Positions 9,497 through 18,079 of a stretch of DNA of 64,000 bases are shown one piece after another. Source of the DNA: Streptomyces camelliae (lineage in GTDB: Bacteria; Actinomycetota; Actinomycetes; Streptomycetales; Streptomycetaceae); assembly GCF_027625935.1 (NCBI RefSeq), contig NZ_CP115300.1, positions 682,001 through 746,000 on the forward strand, written 5' to 3'. A program made the position numbers and the translations under genes. Each line of letters opens with the position of its first letter. Positions within the stretch are counted from its first letter, which is position 1. The notes beneath the pieces were generated by a model. That model had not been told where the DNA came from. It did no database searches and saw only the letters and a list, made by a program, of their open reading frames with translations.

Positions 9497-10522
9497 TCAC
9501 TTCTCCCGGTGCTGGCTGCGGATCCTGGCGGCGACGTCGTTCTGTTCGGTCTCCCACCACGGCCGTACCCGCTCGGCGGACGGCGCCTCGGGGACGGGGG
9601 CGGAGGTGGCCGCGGGTACGACGGCGGGGGCGAGTTCCGCGTCCAGGCGGCGGTCCAGGGCGGCGTTCTGGACCCGCTCCGCGCGCGCCCACTGGTACAG
9701 CAGGGCCAGCAGGAAGGGCAGCGCGACCAGCTCGGCGATGCTGAGCATCGCGCCGCCGCCGATCTGCTGGTCGTGCCGGACGTCCGGGGACCAGGTCGGC
9801 GCGTGGTGCAGGTACCAGGCGCCCGCGATCAGGGTGCCGTGGGTCATCACGACCACGCCGGGGACCGCGTCGACGATGCCGTCCAGGAAGACCAGTCCCG
9901 CCCGTACCGGGTGGGTGCACCAGCTGGGCAGTGCCTCCTCGTGGGTCAGCACCGGTACGACGAACAGGGAGCCGGCCACGAGCAGGTGCAGATACATCAG
10001 CTCGTGCAGCCAGCCCACGCGCAGGGCGGTGGCGAAGTACGGCGTGAAGTACACCGTCAGCTCCGTGGCCAGCACCAGGGCGGTGCTGACCAGGGGGAAG
10101 GTCAGTACGCGTACCAGGCGGCCGGACATCACCCGGCGCACCCGCCCGCCGGCGTGCTCCGGCAGGGCCAGGACGGCCAGCCGGAGCGGGTCGCCGAGGG
10201 CGAGGCCCAGCGGGGCGACCAGGTCCAGGAGGATGTTCTGCACGGCGGCCGGCCAGAACAGCACATGGTCGTAGACGGCCAGCGCGGACATCGTGGCGGC
10301 CACCAGCGCGCCCAGGCCGAGCAGCACGAAGGCGGCGACGCGGCCCGGCGGCCAGGTCTCGCCCCGCCGGCGCAGCCGCGCGACGCCCCAGCCGTAGAGC
10401 GCGCCCAGGGCGATGACCAGCAGCAGCGCGGGGAGGTCCAGCTGCCAGGTGGACAGCAGACGTCCTGTGGTCAGCTCGGGCAGCTCGCCGGCCGACAGGG
10501 CGGTCAGCGCGTGGCCATCCAT
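9497..10522 (-). CDS. CtaG-type cytochrome c oxidase assembly membrane protein
   Basis: 341 residues; ATG 10522 has GAAGGAGG 9 bases upstream. Seven or so hydrophobic helices fill residues 25-280, among them LPALLLVIALGALYGWGV, AFVLLGLGALVAATMSALAV and ALVLATELTVYF. Motifs ALAVYDHVLFWPAAVQNIL, MYLHLLVAGSLFVVPV and GVVVMTHGTLIAGAWY, with several membrane His residues, are typical of the caa3/CtaG_Bsu family that helps insert copper into cytochrome oxidase. The C-terminal 60 residues are cytosolic and charged. It runs in the same direction as the NRAMP operon upstream but 135 bases separate them. Confidence 0.82.
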   Translation of the reverse strand: MDGHALTALSAGELPELTTGRLLSTWQLDLPALLLVIALGALYGWGVARLRRRGETWPPGRVAAFVLLGLGALVAATMSALAVYDHVLFWPAAVQNILLDLVAPLGLALGDPLRLAVLALPEHAGGRVRRVMSGRLVRVLTFPLVSTALVLATELTVYFTPYFATALRVGWLHELMYLHLLVAGSLFVVPVLTHEEALPSWCTHPVRAGLVFLDGIVDAVPGVVVMTHGTLIAGAWYLHHAPTWSPDVRHDQQIGGGAMLSIAELVALPFLLALLYQWARAERVQNAALDRRLDAELAPAVVPAATSAPVPEAPSAERVRPWWETEQNDVAARIRSQHREK

Positions 10523-10657
10523 GCGGATCGTCCTCCTTCGGTTCGGTATGGCGGGCTCGGCGCGGAAGAGTCCGGCTCGGGTCCACCACGGGACGGTAGT
10601 CCCCGGCGGGCCGACACCTGGCATCGGGGTGCCGCGCGCCGGGGTGAAGGGCGAGGA

Positions 10658-11950
10658 TCAGGCAAGATCGAACCAGCCCAGGACCGTCTGCACGAGGAGG
10701 ATCGTCGACATGGCCGCGACACCGACGACCACAGCGGTGGCGGCGATGCGGTAGCGCGGGCCGTTGGCCGCCGGGCCGAGGACGGAGCGGCGGTTGGTCA
10801 GGACCAGGAGGTAGACCAGGACGACGGGGCTGATCAGGCCCTGGAGGACCTGGGTGCCGATCAGCAGCTGGATGACGTCGACCGGGGTCATGGCCACCGT
10901 GGCACCCAGCACGATCTGGGCGGTGAACAGGCCGAGGAAGAGCGGGGCGTCGCGGAAGCTGCGGGAGACGGAGCGCTCCACGCCGGCCGCCTCTCCTATG
11001 GCATAGCTGGCCGAGAGCGGGACGACGGCGCCGGCCAGGGCGGAGGCGCCGAGCAGGCCGAGCGCGAACAGGAGCTCCGCGCCCTGGCCCGCGACCGGTT
11101 TGAGGGCCTCGGCGGCCTGGGCTGCGGAGTTCAGCGGGCCGGTGCCGCCGATGGCGGAGGCCGTGGCGATGATGATGGTCAGGCTGATGACACAGGCGAA
11201 GACAGCGCCCAGGATGGCGTCGGCGCGGATCAGCGGGTAGTCGGCGGGCTTGGCGCCCCGGTCCACGACGCCCGCGGCGGCGTAGAACTGCATGTACGGG
11301 CTGACCGTCGTACCGATCAGCGCGACCGCGAGCAGGATGAAGTCCTTGTTCGCCTCGACGTGCGGGATGACCAGGTTGTGGCCGACCGCGCCCCAGTGGG
11401 GGTGGCCGAGGATCATCGCGAGCGGGTACGCGAAGAAGGCGAGCGACATGATCAGGAAGATGCGCTCGGCCCAGTGGTAGGAGCCGAACAGCACCAGCGC
11501 CCACAGCAGGACCGCCGCCGGCGGGATGACCGCCCACTTCGGCACGCCGAGGAGCTCGAACGCGGCGCCGATGCCGGCGAACTCGGACACGACCAGGCCG
11601 GTGTTGGCGAGCAGCAGGCAGGACACGGCGAGCGCGGTCAGGCGCAGGCTGAACTGTTCGCGGATCAGGGCTCCCAGGCCCTTGCCCGTGTGGGCGCCGA
11701 GGCGTACGGCCATCTCCTGCACCATCACCAGGGCGATGGTGACGAGCACCATGAAGAAGAGGGTGCCGTAGGTGTACTGGGACCCGGCCGAGGCGTAGGT
11801 GGCGATGCCGGCCGCGTCGTTGCCGGCGTTCGCGGCGACCAGTCCGGGTCCGGCGACGGCCGCGATCATGGTGAGGCGCCGCCAGCCGGTCCGGCGCGCG
11901 GGCGCGGGGGCCTGCGGTGCCGGGGTGGCGGTGTCGAGGTCGCGGGTCAC
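10658..11950 (-). CDS. non-canonical NRAMP-family metal ion transporter
   Basis: 430 residues with 11-12 hydrophobic helices arranged as in NRAMP carriers. The helix-1 signature, normally DPGN, reads NDAAGIATY (D45 kept, Asn replaced by Gly48), and the helix-6 metal motif, normally MPH, reads SPYMQF (S217, Y219). Loss of the Met and His ligands argues against Mn/Fe transport and fits NRAMP-related carriers for harder ions such as Mg2+. The start overlaps the stop of the upstream MgtE_N/CBS gene by 4 bases (ATGA), so the two are translated together. Membrane location is certain; the ion is inference. Confidence 0.85.
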   Translation of the reverse strand: MTRDLDTATPAPQAPAPARRTGWRRLTMIAAVAGPGLVAANAGNDAAGIATYASAGSQYTYGTLFFMVLVTIALVMVQEMAVRLGAHTGKGLGALIREQFSLRLTALAVSCLLLANTGLVVSEFAGIGAAFELLGVPKWAVIPPAAVLLWALVLFGSYHWAERIFLIMSLAFFAYPLAMILGHPHWGAVGHNLVIPHVEANKDFILLAVALIGTTVSPYMQFYAAAGVVDRGAKPADYPLIRADAILGAVFACVISLTIIIATASAIGGTGPLNSAAQAAEALKPVAGQGAELLFALGLLGASALAGAVVPLSASYAIGEAAGVERSVSRSFRDAPLFLGLFTAQIVLGATVAMTPVDVIQLLIGTQVLQGLISPVVLVYLLVLTNRRSVLGPAANGPRYRIAATAVVVGVAAMSTILLVQTVLGWFDLA

Positions 11951-13293
11951 TGGAGGAACCTCCGGAAGTGCAGCCGGCCGCGTTCGGGCAGCAGGGCGTC
12001 GAGCAGGTCGTCGGCCAGGATCCGGCCGAGCGGGCGGTCGCTGTCGTCGACCACCAGGAGTGAGGAGGCGCGGGCCGCGACGAGCTGGTCGGCGGCGTCG
12101 GCCAGGGAGGTGTCGGCGTGCACGGTGTCCGGCGGGCCGAACTGGACCCGCCAGGCGACCAGGTCGGCGATCGGGGTGGTGTCCTCGGCCACCGCCAGGT
12201 CGAACAGCGGGATGTCGGACAGCAGCCGGTCCGTGCCGTCCACGACGGCGACCGCGTCGATCTCGGTGCGGTGCTCGGCCTGTTCGGCCAGCCGGCCGCG
12301 CACCTCGGCGACGGACTCGTCCTGCCGGGCGGTGATCAGCAGCGTGGTCATGGCACCGCCCGCCGTGCCCTCCCGGTGGGTCAGCAGCCGGCGCAGTTCG
12401 GCCGCCTCGTCCTTCGGCATCCGGGTCAGCAGGGCTTCGCGCTCCTCGCGGGTGAGGTCGCGCAGGGCGTCGGTGGCCTCGTCGGGCTCCATCTCGTCGA
12501 CCAGGCGGGCCGCGTGCTCCGGCTGGGCCTCGCGCAGCAGGTTCTGCAGCTCGGCCGGTTCCATCTCCTCCAGCGCGTCGGCGGCCCGCTCCGGCTCCAG
12601 CCAGCCCAGCAGCTGCTGGCGTTCGGCGCGGCCGAGGTCTTCGAGGATGTCGGCGAGGTCGGCCGGGCGCAGCCGGTGCAGCGCCGCCCGGGAGGCGCGC
12701 AGCCGCACCTCGGGCGGACCCTCGGTGGCCTGCTCGGCGAAGGGCGCGACGGACTGCCAGTCCAGCACCCGCTCCGGCGTGGGGCGGGCCTGCCAGCGGC
12801 GCGGGCCGAGCCGGCGCAGCAGGGTGGGCAGCGAGACGTCCACCCCGACCAGGACGATCTGGTCCACCAGGGGTGCCAGATACAGGTCGGCGGCCCGGGT
12901 GACCTGTACGCCGTCGACGTCGACCAGCTGGTGGTCGAGGACGTCCTTGGCCAGCAGCACCTCACCGGGCCGGCGTACGAAGTCCCGCAGGTCGACGCGG
13001 GCGGTACGCAGCCGTACGTGTCCGGCGTGCACCTTGCCGACGGCGTCGGCCGGCACGAAGGTACGGCGCCGGCCGATGCGCAGGATGAGCCCGGTGACCG
13101 GAGGGTAGGAGTCGGTGCCGTAGAGCCGGGCGACGACGTCGACGACGCGGCCGACCTCGTCGCCCGACTGGTTGGTGACCTGGCCGCCGATCAGCCCGGC
13201 GAGGGAGACCAGCGAGGTGCGGACCGCCTTGGACGCGGTGGCGCGGCGCTCCAGACTGACCCGGCGGTCCCGCAGACGGGCCGAAGTGGACAT
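11947..13293 (-). CDS. MgtE N-domain/CBS cytosolic regulatory protein
   Basis: 448 residues with no membrane segment. The N-terminus (about 20-110) resembles a PRC-barrel (GGQVTNQSGDEVGRVVDVVA). Residues of about 195-325 form the MgtE_N superhelix with repeats such as LRPADLADILEDLGRAERQQ and EMEPDEATDALRDLTREERE. A CBS pair follows (DESVAEVRGRL, DTSLADAADQLVAARASSLL). This is the Mg2+-sensing gate of MgtE without its channel. The ATGA overlap with the NRAMP-type gene suggests that it gates that carrier. Start at ATG 13293; GTG 13323, with a better AAGGGG site, is an alternative. Confidence 0.85.
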   Translation of the reverse strand: MSTSARLRDRRVSLERRATASKAVRTSLVSLAGLIGGQVTNQSGDEVGRVVDVVARLYGTDSYPPVTGLILRIGRRRTFVPADAVGKVHAGHVRLRTARVDLRDFVRRPGEVLLAKDVLDHQLVDVDGVQVTRAADLYLAPLVDQIVLVGVDVSLPTLLRRLGPRRWQARPTPERVLDWQSVAPFAEQATEGPPEVRLRASRAALHRLRPADLADILEDLGRAERQQLLGWLEPERAADALEEMEPAELQNLLREAQPEHAARLVDEMEPDEATDALRDLTREEREALLTRMPKDEAAELRRLLTHREGTAGGAMTTLLITARQDESVAEVRGRLAEQAEHRTEIDAVAVVDGTDRLLSDIPLFDLAVAEDTTPIADLVAWRVQFGPPDTVHADTSLADAADQLVAARASSLLVVDDSDRPLGRILADDLLDALLPERGRLHFRRFLQ

Positions 13294-13412
13294 GAGCAGA
13301 GTGTGGGCAGCCAAAGTGAACACCCCCTTGCCCCGGCGTGACGGGGCTACGGGCGGCCCACGGCAGCACACGTCCTCCCCCGGACCGCGCGCCGGGCGCG
13401 CCGGGCGCACGA

Positions 13413-13443
13413 CGGCACACCGGCCGGCCGGGCCGGTGTGCCG
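13413..13443 (-). terminator. 13-bp hairpin in the leader of the MgtE_N/NRAMP operon
   Basis: CGGCACACCGGCC (13413-13425) and GGCCGGTGTGCCG (13431-13443) form a perfect 13-bp stem with a 5-base loop. It lies 16 bases after the stop of the candidate leader ORF and about 120 bases before the operon start, where an attenuator would be expected. No T-run follows. Confidence 0.55.
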
Positions 13444-13458
13444 GTGGCCGGTCGGGGG

Positions 13459-13545
13459 TCAGGGAAGAGGAGGCTGCTCCGGGCCGCGGAAGGACAGCGC
13501 GGACAACACGATGAGGGGCCGACTATGGCCCGGACTACTGTCCAT
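13459..13545 (-). CDS. candidate 28-residue proline-rich leader peptide
   Basis: A short ORF with ATG 13545 behind an excellent GGGAGGAGG site, ending TGA at 13459. The peptide is MDSSPGHSRPLIVLSALS then FRGPEQPPLP, with four prolines in its last seven codons. A strong hairpin follows its stop, then the MgtE_N/NRAMP operon on the same strand. Proline-rich leader peptides control Mg2+ transporter genes in enterobacteria (mgtL), so a similar translation-coupled attenuation is plausible. No homologue is known to me; the coding status is inferred from ribosome site, position and context. Confidence 0.42.
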   Translation of the reverse strand: MDSSPGHSRPLIVLSALSFRGPEQPPLP

Positions 13546-13683
13546 GTCGCCTCCTCCCGGTCGCGGCCGCGTCACCCCTCGGGACGGGGGAAGCTGCTCT
13601 GGAACCATACCGCCCGCCACAACCCTCCTTCCGCACCTATGACCCGTCCTTGACCTGCGCACTACACAACGGAGACCGTTTCG
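13546..13683 (-). promoter_or_regulatory. leader/promoter region of the MgtE_N/NRAMP operon
   Basis: This stretch upstream of the leader ORF has no gene. It contains a CCCC/GGGG dyad just ahead of the ribosome site and a possible TATGGT -10 element on the minus strand. I looked for M-box and yybP-ykoY riboswitch signatures and found neither. Confidence 0.3.
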
Positions 13684-16600
13684 TCAGTACACGTCCCGCA
13701 CATAGCGCTTGTCGGCGGCGAGCTGCTTGACGTAGACCGCGGCCTCCGTCTCGTCCAGGCCGCCGTGCACGACGGCGATCTCCCGCAGGGCCCGGTCGAC
13801 GTCCTTGGCCATGCGGGAGGCGTCGCCGCAGACGTAGAAGTGGGCGCCGTCCTGGAGCCAGGACCACAGCAGCGGGCCGTGTTCGCGCATGCGGTCCTGG
13901 ACGTAGACCTTGGCACGCTGGTCACGGGAGAAGGCGGTGTCCAGGCGGCTGAGCGTGCCGTCGGCGAGGAACGCGGTGAGCTCCTCCTCGTAGTAGAAGT
14001 CCGTCGCCCGATGCTGTTCGCCGAAGAACAGCCAGTTCGGCGCACGGTGACCGCGGGCCCGGCGTTCCTCCAGAAAGCCGATGAAAGGGGCGACGCCGGT
14101 GCCGGGGCCCACCATCACCGCGGGGGTGGCGGGGTCGGCGGGCGGCCGGAAGTGCGGCGCCCGCTGGACGCGGACCGGCACCGGGGTGCCGGGCTCGGCG
14201 TCGGCGAGGAAGGGGGAGCACACGCCCTGGCGGGGGCGGCCGCCCAGGTTCTCGTAGCGGACGACGGAGACGGTCAGCGAGACCAGGTGCGGGTCGGTCA
14301 GGGGACTGGACGATATGGAGTACATCCGGGGTTGCAGCCGCCCCAGCACGTCCGCCCATTCCTGCGCCCCGGCCCGGACGCCGAACTCGCCGACCACGTC
14401 GACGGCCTGCCGTCCCCAGGACCACTGCGCCAGCTCGCCCTTGTTGTCCGGCCGGAGCAGCTTGCGCAGCTCGCGCGGGTCGCGGGTGCGGTCGGCGGCG
14501 AAGCGCAGCAGGTCGGGAGTGACCCGGGTGATGTCCAGGTGCCGGAGCAGGGCTTCGCCGAACGGCACCTCTCCGACGGTCCTGAGGGTGACGGCCGTGT
14601 CCGCGTCGAGACCGGTGACGGCCAGCCATTCGGTCACCAGCTCCGGCCGGTTGACGGGGTGTACGGACAGGGCGTCCCCGGCCTCGTAGACCAGCGGGGC
14701 CTCGCTGTCGCGGGTGTCGAAGGTGAAGCGCCGGACCTCCTTGCCCGCGCCGGGCAGACTGAGCAGGCGGTTGCCGGTGAGGCGGGCGATGACGGGCGCG
14801 GGACGGCTCGGCCGCGGGGCCGCCGGGACGGTGCGGGCCGGCTGTTCGGAGGTCTGCAGCGCGGAGCGCACCTGGTCGAGCCAGGCTCCGGCCGCGCTCT
14901 CGTAGTCCGGTTCACAGTCGGTGCGCGGGGCCAGGGGCGTCGCGTCCAGTTCCGCCATGCGCCGGTCCAGGCGGCGGCCGTGGCCGCAGAAGTCGTCGTA
15001 GGAGGAGTCGCCGAAGGCCAGGACGGCGTACCGCCTGCCGTTCAGGCGCGGGGCGTCGGGCGCGGTGAGGGCGTCCCAGAAGCCGGCGCCGTTGTCGGGG
15101 GCGTCGCCGTCGCCGAAGGTGCTCGTGATCAGCAGCAGGTCGGCGTCGGACGGCAGCGCGGCGGGGTCCGCCTCGGCCATGGGCAGGAGGGAGGCGGCGT
15201 GGCCGTCGGCGGTGAGCCGCTCCACCGCGGCGAACGCGAACTCCTCGGCGTTCCCGGTCTGCGAGGCCCAGAGGATCACGACCTGGCGGCGGGGGCCGGC
15301 CACGGCCGGGGTGGACGGCTGTGCGGAGTCGCCGGTCCCGTGTGCGGGCGCCGGCTCGGACCTGGAGTACATCCCGGCGAGTACGCCGTTGACCCACAGG
15401 GCGTGCTCCGGGCTGAACGGGGCGTTCGCCGGCAGGACCGGTACGCCCGCCGAGCCGAACGGGATACCGGCCAGGAAGCCGGTGAGATAGCGGCGTTCGT
15501 GGTCGGCCAGGACCGGTGGCGGTGCGGCTTCCAGCCCGAACGGGGTGGGGACGGACGCCGTCGGCAGGGCGGTGGACGCCTCAGGCGGCGCGACGGCAGC
15601 CGGAGCGGCCCCGACGGGCACCGGGGTCATGGCCTCGGGAGCCGCCGGCACCGGAGTCTGCACGGTCACCGGGGTGGCCACCTTGGTCAGCGACACCGCG
15701 CACACCTTGAACTCGGGCTGGAACGACAGCGGGTCGACGGCGTCGCTGGTCACGGCGTTGACGCTGAGGTACTCGCCGAACAGGTCGTTCCAGTGGAACG
15801 GCGCGAAGCAGCAGCCCGGCCGCACCCGGTCGGTGACGACCGCGGGAAGCACCGCCCGCCCGCGCCGCGAGGCGACCTCCACGGAATCGCCCTCGGCCAG
15901 GTCCAGCCGGGCCGCGTCCTCGGGATGCACCTCCACGAAGGGCCCGGGGTTCAGCTTGTTCAGCTTGGCCACCTTGGCCGTCTTGGTGAGCGTGTGCCAC
16001 TGGTGCTGGAGCCGGCCGGTGTTGAGCACGAACGGGTAGTCGTCGTCGGGCATCTCCGCCGCGGGTATGTGCGGGCGGGCGTAGAAGACCGCACGGCCGC
16101 TCGCGGTCGGGAAGGTCGGTGCCCCCGCTGTTGCGTCCTCGCCGACATACCGGATCGGATTGCGGTCGGGACCGTGGGCGCTCGCCGCCGGCCACTGCAC
16201 GGGCGTGGTGCGCAGCCGCTCGTAGCTCACCCCGCGCAGGTCCCAGCCGGTCACCGGGTTCCAGGCGCGCTTGATCTCCTCGAAGACCTCCTCGGCGCTG
16301 TCGTACGCGAAGCCCTTCTCGTAGCCCATCTGCCGGGCCACGGCGGCGATGATCCGCCAGTCCGCGGTCGCCTCGCCGGGCGGGTCGGCGGCGGGCCGGG
16401 CGAGGGTGAGGTTGCGCTCGCTGTTGATCAGGACGCCCTCGGCCTCGGTCCACAGCGCGCCGGGCAGGACGACGTCGGCGTAGGCGTTGGTCTCGGTCTC
16501 GGCGAACACGTCCTGGGTGACGACGAGTTCGGCGGCCTCCAGGCCCTCGATGACCGTCTTGCGGTTGGCGACGGAGGCGACCGGGTTGGTGCAGATGATC

Positions 16601-17859
16601 CAGCACGCCTTGATGTGCCCGTCGGCCATCTTCTGGAACATCTCGACCGTGCCCTTGCCGACCCCGTCGGCCCGCAGGGTGTTGGGCTCCAGCTCCCACA
16701 GCTCCTCGACGAAGGCCCGGTCGGCGTCGGCGAGCACGGACCGCTGGCCGGGCAGTCCCGGCCCCATGTAGCCCATCTCCCGGCCGCCCATGGCGTTGGG
16801 CTGGCCGGTCAGCGAGAAGGGGCCGGAGCCCGGCCGGCAGATCGCGCCGGTGGCGAGGTGCAGGTTGACCAGGGCGTTGGTGTTCCAGGTGCCGTGCGTG
16901 GACTGGTTCAGGCCCATCGTCCAGCAGCTCGTCCACTCCCCGGCCTCGCCGATCAGCCGGGCGGCCTCCCGTATGTGCTCCTCCGGTATGCCGGTGATCT
17001 CGGCGACGGTGGCGGGCGGGTAGTCGGCGAGGAAGCCGGGCATCGCCTCCCAGCCCTCGGTGTGCGCGGCGATGAAGTCGGGATCGGTGTGCCCGTCCGC
17101 GTGCAGCAGATGCAGCAGCCCGTTGAGCAGCGCGAGGTCCGTGCCGGGCTTGATCTGCAGGAACAGGTCGGCCTTGGCGGCGGTGGCGGTGCGCCGCGGG
17201 TCCACGACGATCAGCTTGGCGCCCGCCGACTTCACCCGCTCCATCATCCGCAGGAAGAGGATGGGATGGCAGTCGGCCATGTTGGAGCCGATGACGAGGA
17301 AGACGTCGGCCTTGTCGAGGTCCTGGTACGACCCGGGCGGCCCGTCCGCGCCCAGGGACAGCTTGTAGCCGGTTCCCGCGCTGGCCATGCACAGCCGGGA
17401 GTTGGACTCGATCTGGTTGGTGCGGATGAAGCCCTTGGCCAGCTTGTTCGCCAGGTACTGCGCCTCCAGGCTCATCTGTCCGGAGACGTAGAGGGCGACC
17501 GCGTCGGGGCCGTGCTCGTCGATGATCGCGCGCAGCCGGCGAGCCGTCTCGGCGACGGCGTCCGCCAGCGGCACGGGCCGCGGTTCCTCGCCGCGCTCGG
17601 GCCGGACGAGGGCGCTCGTCAGCCGGCCCGGGGCGGCGAGCATGTCCGCGGTGGTCGCGCCCTTGGTGCACAGCCGGCCGAAGTTCGCCGGGTGCTCCTT
17701 GTCCCCGCTCGCCTTCAGGACCGTACGGCGCCCGTCCGGCCCCCTGCCGACGTCGAGGACCAGGCCGCAGCCCACCCCGCAGTACGAGCAGACCGTCCGC
17801 ACCTTCGTCGTGCCCTCGCTCAGCGAGCCCGGCGCGGCCACGGGCGCCTCCTTGTCCAC
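13684..17859 (-). CDS. assimilatory nitrate reductase fused to CysJ-like flavoprotein
   Basis: 1391 residues from GTG 17859. Order: a [4Fe-4S] site ([10 protein letters not shown] with GRLCTKG), molybdopterin oxidoreductase core (about 50-560; [35 protein letters not shown]), molydopterin dinucleotide-binding domain (about 610-740), a short [18 protein letters not shown] linker resembling the CysJ N-terminus, a flavodoxin domain near residue 860 ([25 protein letters not shown]), FAD domain ([10 protein letters not shown]) and NAD(P)H domain to the C-terminus ([17 protein letters not shown]). It can thus carry electrons from NAD(P)H through FAD/FMN and Fe-S to Mo within one polypeptide and reduce nitrate to nitrite in the cytoplasm. 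No nitrite reductase is in the window. Confidence 0.9.
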
Positions 17860-18079
17860 TGCTCGACCTGATCTCACCCTTCGTGACGGTACGAACCCCT
17901 CATTACGTCGGTGTCTCCACACCTGATCATCAGGGGTTACGCCCGCCGCACAGGGGCCGGGAGGCGCGTGTGAGCCCGGGTCGTGGATCGCTCGCGGACC
18001 GGGTCCCTCGCTCCTCCCCGCTTGCTGGGGCGCAGGCCACTGTGCTACGAGCCGCTGGAGCCGTGGCGGAGGAAGGCTC
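17860..18079. promoter_or_regulatory. upstream region of the nitrate reductase gene
   Basis: Nested inverted repeats are present: AACCCCT (17895-17901)/AGGGGTT (17932-17938) enclosing CCTGAT-C-ATCAGG (17922-17934). They lie 35-80 bases before the nitrate reductase start and could be an operator. A GTAAC half-site recalls GlnR boxes, but the full repeat is not visible. Confidence 0.4.

Follow-up and report, generated by a model that had tools for sequence, protein, structure and literature searches.

Carriers of the NRMT (NrmT) type form an outgroup of the SLC11/NRAMP family, and the main text of Shin et al. 2014 (PLoS Genet, PMC4072509) reports that most genes of the NrmT group adjoin a homologue of the cytoplasmic domain of MgtE, with the carrier gene directly downstream. 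The authors speculated on cytoplasmic feedback regulation or chaperoning by this MgtE-like fragment. A carrier of this type, EleNRMT (7QIA; Ramanadane et al. 2022, eLife, PMC8806188), transports both Mg2+ and Mn2+; the signature of the group is DxxG-TxxA/T, and exchange of EleNRMT T224 for Ala made Mg2+ transport undetectable. In TtMgtE, the magnesium sites were assigned to E258 (Mg2), D259 (Mg3), D91/D247 (Mg4), D226/D250 (Mg5), D95 (Mg6) and E59 (Mg7) (PMC5882242). The stretch analysed here, 64,000 nucleotides of Streptomyces camelliae (contig NZ_CP115300.1, positions 682,001 to 746,000) and referred to as the window, shows the same arrangement, i.e. an MgtE cytoplasmic-domain gene (encoding P0002) directly upstream of the gene of an NRMT-type carrier (P0001). 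The sensor-carrier module, first described in 2014, is real and widespread, and the pair in the window is an actinobacterial member of it. We propose, at a probability of roughly 0.6, that P0002 is a soluble subunit sensing Mg2+ and gating the carrier P0001, the two acting as one Mg2+-uptake unit. The features of the pair are as follows.

10658..11950, minus strand: gene of the NRMT-type carrier P0001 (SLC11/NRAMP outgroup), 430 amino acids; PF01566, with EleNRMT as best structure.
11947..13293, minus strand: gene of the channel-less sensor P0002, 448 amino acids; Pfam domains and an AlphaFold model with a predicted local distance difference test (pLDDT) score of 87.
12754..13203, minus strand: PRC-like region of P0002, residues 31-180, modelled as two beta-rich units; called from the PF05239 scores of relatives and the secondary structure of the model.
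12370..12672, minus strand: MgtE_N of P0002, residues 208-308 (Pfam, 7.7e-25); D239, D271 and D275 align with TtMgtE E59, D91 and D95.
11983..12369, minus strand: CBS pair of P0002, residues 309-437; D429 and D432 correspond to TtMgtE D247 and D250, and R408 replaces D226.
11950..11982, minus strand: short basic C-terminal tail of P0002, RGRLHFRRFLQ, where MgtE has an acidic plug helix.
11816..11818, minus strand: Asp45 of P0001, corresponding to EleNRMT D55, the kept metal-site aspartate, with Gly48 (G58) three codons on (alignments).
11300..11311, minus strand: Thr214-Thr-Val-Ser217 of P0001, TxxS at the NRMT TxxA/T position (EleNRMT T224..A227; alignments, motif from PMC8806188).
10850..10852, minus strand: Gln367 of P0001, corresponding to EleNRMT Q379 (alignments).

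The two genes share four bases (11947-11950), the P0002 gene coming first, and the sequence-only reading of an NRAMP-type gene overlapping the gene of a 448-residue soluble protein was upheld by this overlap and by the PF01566 and MgtE_N/CBS matches. The start of P0002 is ambiguous; an in-frame TTG seven codons upstream (13314) would give a form of 455 amino acids, a length that is common among the listed homologues. The closest database proteins of P0001 and of P0002 both come from Streptomyces. The S. camelliae genome (9.6 Mb) contains one NRAMP match and three CorA matches, and a profile search for the MgtE channel domain PF01769 gave no match anywhere in it.

Named genomes were scanned with an NRMT alignment, and the best 80 of 527 confirmed stretches, a set weighted toward close relatives, were taken as NRMT loci. 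A gene of the MgtE_N-CBS type was found upstream and on the same strand at 65 of the 80 loci, spanning Actinomycetota, Acidobacteriota, Chloroflexota, Bacillota, Armatimonadota and others; the survey of MgtE_N/CBS-NRAMP gene pairs that the sequence-only reading had proposed found such a partner upstream of the carrier in many phyla. With starts assigned by script, partner and carrier are -19 to 168 bases apart at all of these loci but L064 (1470 bases). Other neighbours in the window had relatives at none or one of the 80 loci (CtaG-like protein, 1; molybdopterin oxidoreductase, 0; methyltransferase, 1), and a chance neighbourhood of P0001 and P0002 was rejected on these counts. Natural fusions were searched for with P0002 and P0001 joined as the query, which admits only proteins of about 480-1540 amino acids, and 99 proteins were returned, of which some carry the domains of both partners. 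P0243 and P0244 are intact fusions of 882 amino acids each, 94% identical, in which the sensor is followed by a short linker and the carrier. Judged by eye, P0245, P0247, P0248, P0285 and P0296 resemble this lineage but are frameshifted in places; a further three (P0246, P0249, P0250) are incomplete or irregular. Since insertions or deletions at the gene overlap could create such fusions, only P0243 and P0244 were counted as real.

P0001 matched PF01566 at 2e-78, the sole Pfam family found in it. Against solved structures it scored 295 bits with EleNRMT (7qia) and 66 bits with the best classical MntH, and the NCBIfam MntH model gave 115 bits, far under its cut-off of 430. In the alignment NDAAGIA stands in place of DPGN and TTVSPYM in place of A..MPH, and P0001 does lack the classical ligands Asn, Met and His, as the sequence-only reading had noted. 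The claim built on it, that of an NRAMP protein without metal ligands, proved wrong, because the classical ligands are replaced in the way that defines NRMTs. D45, G48, T214 and Q367 align with EleNRMT D55, G58, T224 and Q379, helix 1 carrying DxxG as D45-A-A-G48, and the ligand-free reading was rejected after this alignment, the NRMT ligand set being kept except for Ser217 in place of Ala/Thr. In helix 6 T214 is present and the last position of TxxA/T is Ser217; S, T and A forms of this position are mixed among the 80 NRMT loci. P0001 and EleNRMT have the ion-site D, G, T and Q and the fold in common and differ at Ser217 (A227) and Tyr219 (W229). By these alignments P0001 is probably an NRMT-type magnesium carrier.

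P0002 has the MgtE_N and CBS domains in common with the MgtE channel (TtMgtE, 2YVX/2YVY), but lacks the channel domain and the acidic plug helix and carries an additional PRC-like part. A Pfam search gave no match to PF01769 in P0002, and the NCBIfam mgtE model scored 72.9 bits, far under its cut-off of 232.75; sub-threshold matches to FliG and other Pfam families were disregarded. The MgtE_N domain and the two CBS domains had been named correctly from the sequence, whereas the PRC-like part is called from relatives and from the model, the Pfam PRC model (PF05239) giving no match in P0002 itself. Scores above its cut-off of 21.2 were obtained for the paralogue in the same genome (24.1) and for P0340 (27.5), and scores just under it for the fusion proteins P0243 (17.6), P0244 (19.4) and P0247 (17.6). 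PRC-barrel structures were absent from the fold-match lists for the sensor model, lists that a single domain can fill. Residues 441-448 had a pLDDT under 50. The C-terminal half of the PRC-like part is the best-conserved stretch of P0002-type sensors, with a mean identity of 0.67 over 60 compared rows, in a set including database proteins whose gene context was taken as given. Its mean identity was 0.41 in 14 rows from distant phyla, and it is little shared (0.18) with three sensors linked to genes of DUF1003, a domain of unknown function; it is therefore a candidate docking surface.

The residues of the magnesium sites were counted in 66 NRMT-linked sensors with full N/CBS domains. L038, L039, L048 and L059 were excluded for incomplete profile coverage and L067 was assigned to another group; rows L034 and L105 are identical. 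At Mg4, the D91 position was Asp in 62 and the D247 position in 64 of the 66 sensors, and Asp or Glu was found at the D95 position (Mg6) in 65 and at the E59 position (Mg7) in 64. At Mg5, the D250 position was Asp or Glu in 61, and the D226 position was Asp in two and Arg in 45. At the plug-helix sites, E258 was Glu in none of the 66 and Arg or Lys in 54, and D259 was Asp in none. Full MgtE proteins of the set kept E258 and D259 in 14/14 cases and had Asp or Glu at E59 in 10/14 and at D95 in 11/14. DUF1003-linked sensors kept D91, D95, D247 and D250 (7/7), E59 as Asp or Glu (6/7) and D226 (5/7), and all seven had Arg at the E258 position. Because Mg4, Mg6 and Mg7 are kept and Mg2 and Mg3 are lost, the N-CBS switch of the NRMT-linked sensors is retained and its link to the channel plug is gone.

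In the proposed unit, P0001 would take in Mg2+, and probably also Mn2+, without H+ coupling, a property expected by analogy with EleNRMT. P0002 would be the subunit that regulates it, an MgtE N/CBS sensor that forms a dimer and contacts the unfused carrier by docking on its cytoplasmic face through the PRC-like part and/or the short basic tail. At high cytosolic Mg2+ the sites equivalent to Mg4, Mg6 and Mg7 would be filled, the sensor would become compact and the carrier would be held in a non-transporting state; upon a drop in Mg2+ the sensor would loosen and uptake would resume. Both this direction of control and Mg2+ rather than Mn2+ as the ion are what we infer. KimA is a LeuT-fold K+ carrier controlled by a cytosolic cyclic di-AMP domain. 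A LeuT-fold carrier under a cytosolic ligand-sensing part would be common to KimA and to the proposed unit, but in KimA the sensor is covalently attached, the ligand is a nucleotide and the sensor fold is unrelated to that of P0002. The KimA structure 8B71 was among the listed structure matches. The pairing in trans of an MgtE-type Mg2+ sensor with another carrier, as suggested by the sequence-only reading, is well supported by the 65 loci, the two intact fusions and the kept Mg2+ sites; gating would be the function of that pairing, which Shin et al. 2014 had already described.

Several observations weigh against such a gate. According to the main text of PMC4072509, clostridial NrmT transports without the MgtE-like fragment, the carrier of Acidobacterium capsulatum gave full rescue of Mn2+ uptake and Mg2+ rescue only at low millimolar Mg2+, and addition of the A. 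capsulatum fragment gave no better Mg2+ rescue. Closure of MgtE requires every one of Mg2 to Mg7 (PMC5882242), yet most NRMT-linked sensors have lost Mg2 and Mg3 and, at Mg5, the residue at the D226 position. At 15 of the 80 NRMT loci the sequence examined contains no partner, also by a maximum-sensitivity profile search; one of the 15 (L084) has almost no upstream sequence. P0243 and P0244 are each a single-contig entry, no sensor-carrier fusion occurred among the 80 loci, and the structure model of the fusion, in which both halves were confident, resolved no sensor-carrier interface (linker 459-476 under pLDDT 50; predicted template-modelling score, pTM, 0.59). An M-box was not found in the 64-kb window at the gathering threshold. 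In the mycobacterial partners L039 and L048 the PRC-like part is kept, but the two CBS domains are missing, as is half of MgtE_N with the D91/D95 positions, so that sensing is dispensable there.

Some of these observations lend themselves to other explanations. The pair might handle Mn2+, the carrier importing manganese and the MgtE-like protein sensing Mn2+ or total divalent ions. This we regard as unlikely, even though the A. capsulatum carrier, with its full Mn2+ and weak Mg2+ rescue, acted chiefly on Mn2+ (PMC4072509), EleNRMT carries both ions, Ser217 takes the place of the NRMT Ala or Thr, and the window lacks an M-box; P0001, being the sole NRAMP match in the genome, may furthermore have to cover Mn2+. 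T214, whose equivalent in EleNRMT is the residue needed for detectable Mg2+ transport (PMC8806188), is kept, M-box riboswitches precede some sister operons, and the Mg4, Mg6 and Mg7 positions are conserved, all of which argues for Mg2+. It is likewise improbable that P0002 is an assembly, stability or targeting partner and not itself a gate, acting through its PRC-like part and able to do without the sensor domains. Such a scaffold would agree with the conservation of the PRC C-half in P0002-type sensors and its divergence in the DUF1003-linked ones, with the two mycobacterial partners that retain this part without CBS, and with the unchanged Mg2+ rescue on co-expression in the one tested pair (PMC4072509), but it would not need the Mg4, Mg6 and Mg7 positions, which are kept in 62-65 of the 66 full-N/CBS sensors. 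Control of an NRMT carrier by a detached MgtE gate is likely, being better supported than in 2014, and is still what we infer.

Partners of MgtE_N proteins were further recorded in 60 genomes of Actinomycetota, the window genome included. These gave 49 MgtE_N matches, i.e. 41 full-length (two from the window genome) and eight short partial ones counted apart (one beside NRAMP, one inside a channel gene and six beside neither). A PF01769 channel match followed in 23 of the 41, two of which also adjoin NRAMP. The remaining 18 had no recognised channel; nine adjoin NRAMP, nine adjoin DUF1003 and none stands alone. The ninth NRAMP-linked gene (G035:C34, NRAMP upstream) was added from the listing to the eight found by script, and among the 18, G012 (L102) has a hydrophobic tail of about 199 residues missed by PF01769 and G054 (L088) a single hydrophobic segment. 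The window genome holds one channel-less sensor of each kind, its DUF1003-linked PRC-MgtE_N-CBS paralogue (L001:964-2253) overlapping a DUF1003 gene at 2243-2848 and having a CorA match about 1.5 kb upstream of it. An unrooted tree built from 95 N/CBS domains placed the DUF1003-linked sensors in one starred group of eight and 45 mostly actinobacterial NRMT-linked sensors in another; the eighth member of the former is the second copy of L015, which likewise has a DUF1003 gene beside it. Soluble homologues without NRAMP linkage, named by the sequence-only reading as an argument against the coupling, do exist, and the argument applies in part, as the full-length ones in the 60 genomes all lie beside DUF1003 and form a separate clade. 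Five PRC-MgtE proteins keep a membrane part that is weakly or not matched by PF01769 (L067 of Coriobacteriales, L092, L094, L102 and L106). All but L092 adjoin an NRMT gene, and the five group with full MgtE in the tree, the single-segment L088 nesting among them, which suggests, in so far as an unrooted tree can, that the NRMT partnership can precede loss of the MgtE channel. Tentatively, channel-less PRC-MgtE_N-CBS proteins might make up a general class of soluble subunits that sense Mg2+ for different membrane proteins, with NRMT served by one branch and DUF1003 by a second, separate one; DUF1003 would then be a membrane component of divalent-cation homeostasis not recognised before.

Upstream of the sensor gene a further feature was found.

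13459..13545, minus strand: small upstream open reading frame of 28 residues (MDSSPGHSRP...), preceded by GGGAGGAGG and conserved in relatives.

According to its position in relatives, this small frame lies between the M-box and the sensor gene, behind a strong ribosome-binding-like sequence, a layout that recalls the M-box/uORF2 of mycobacteria as described in PMC12810186. NrmT operons with an MgtE-like fragment have an M-box in many but not all members, and the window pair is without one; a lax search of 12900-14400 gave two sub-threshold matches only, both to unrelated families. When all 80 NRMT loci were scanned, an M-box was found at six, before the sensor gene in the Streptomycetaceae L007, L008, L010 and L014 and before the carrier gene in the Clostridium loci L065 and L066. 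The window has the small frame, as do the nine close Streptomycetaceae loci without exception (L007-L014, L044) and also L116-L122; variants are a GTG start with MDSSPGHSQP in L013 and an in-frame extra Ser in one locus. An identical search did not find it at the more distant Streptomyces NRMT loci L026 and L037. Its exact pattern occurred in seven of 199 genus genomes, the same seven whose carrier is at least 88% identical to P0001, and one of the seven has an M-box; four further genomes had carrier matches of 34-36% only. Partial or diverged M-box sequence was seen by eye in L121, L011 and L120, and from such remnants beside the retained frame the M-box aptamer appears to be undergoing decay, whereas the small frame persists. 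Fifteen copies were compared, a set in which the window copy counts twice, two further pairs look identical and the GTG-started L013 copy is left out; the changes seen at codons 5, 7 and 9 were synonymous. As the nucleotides are nearly fixed too, and as the pattern used for the search prescribed the amino acids of codons 1-7, a role of this sequence as RNA is possible.

Two further genes flank the pair. A Caa3_CtaG-type protein is encoded at 9497-10624 (minus strand), beginning 33 bases past the carrier stop codon; its membership in the operon was rejected and the gene placed outside the unit, because a relative was found at only one of the 80 NRMT loci (L009), where it lies on the other strand. 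The sensor operon is directly preceded by the gene of a molybdopterin oxidoreductase of 1412 amino acids, fused to a flavodoxin/FAD/NAD reductase part (13684-17922, minus strand).

The main text of PMC4072509 makes no mention of PRC, CBS, Streptomyces or DUF1003, and fusion there refers to reporter constructs; the PRC-like part, the sensor-carrier fusions, the magnesium-site census and the DUF1003 branch seem to be additions to Shin et al. 2014. Full-text literature searches, with most subscription papers outside them, gave no work after 2014 on the MgtE-like fragment among the papers listed; two papers mention DUF1003, and none combines it with magnesium. Of the leads found here, the DUF1003 branch is the most novel. 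The role of the fragment beside NRMT genes has been a guess since 2014, and with the fusions, the counts of site residues and the partner rule the question of a gate on a LeuT-fold carrier becomes directly testable. If the proposal is true, one sensor module would be coupled to a channel, a carrier and perhaps DUF1003, and DUF1003 would gain a testable role.
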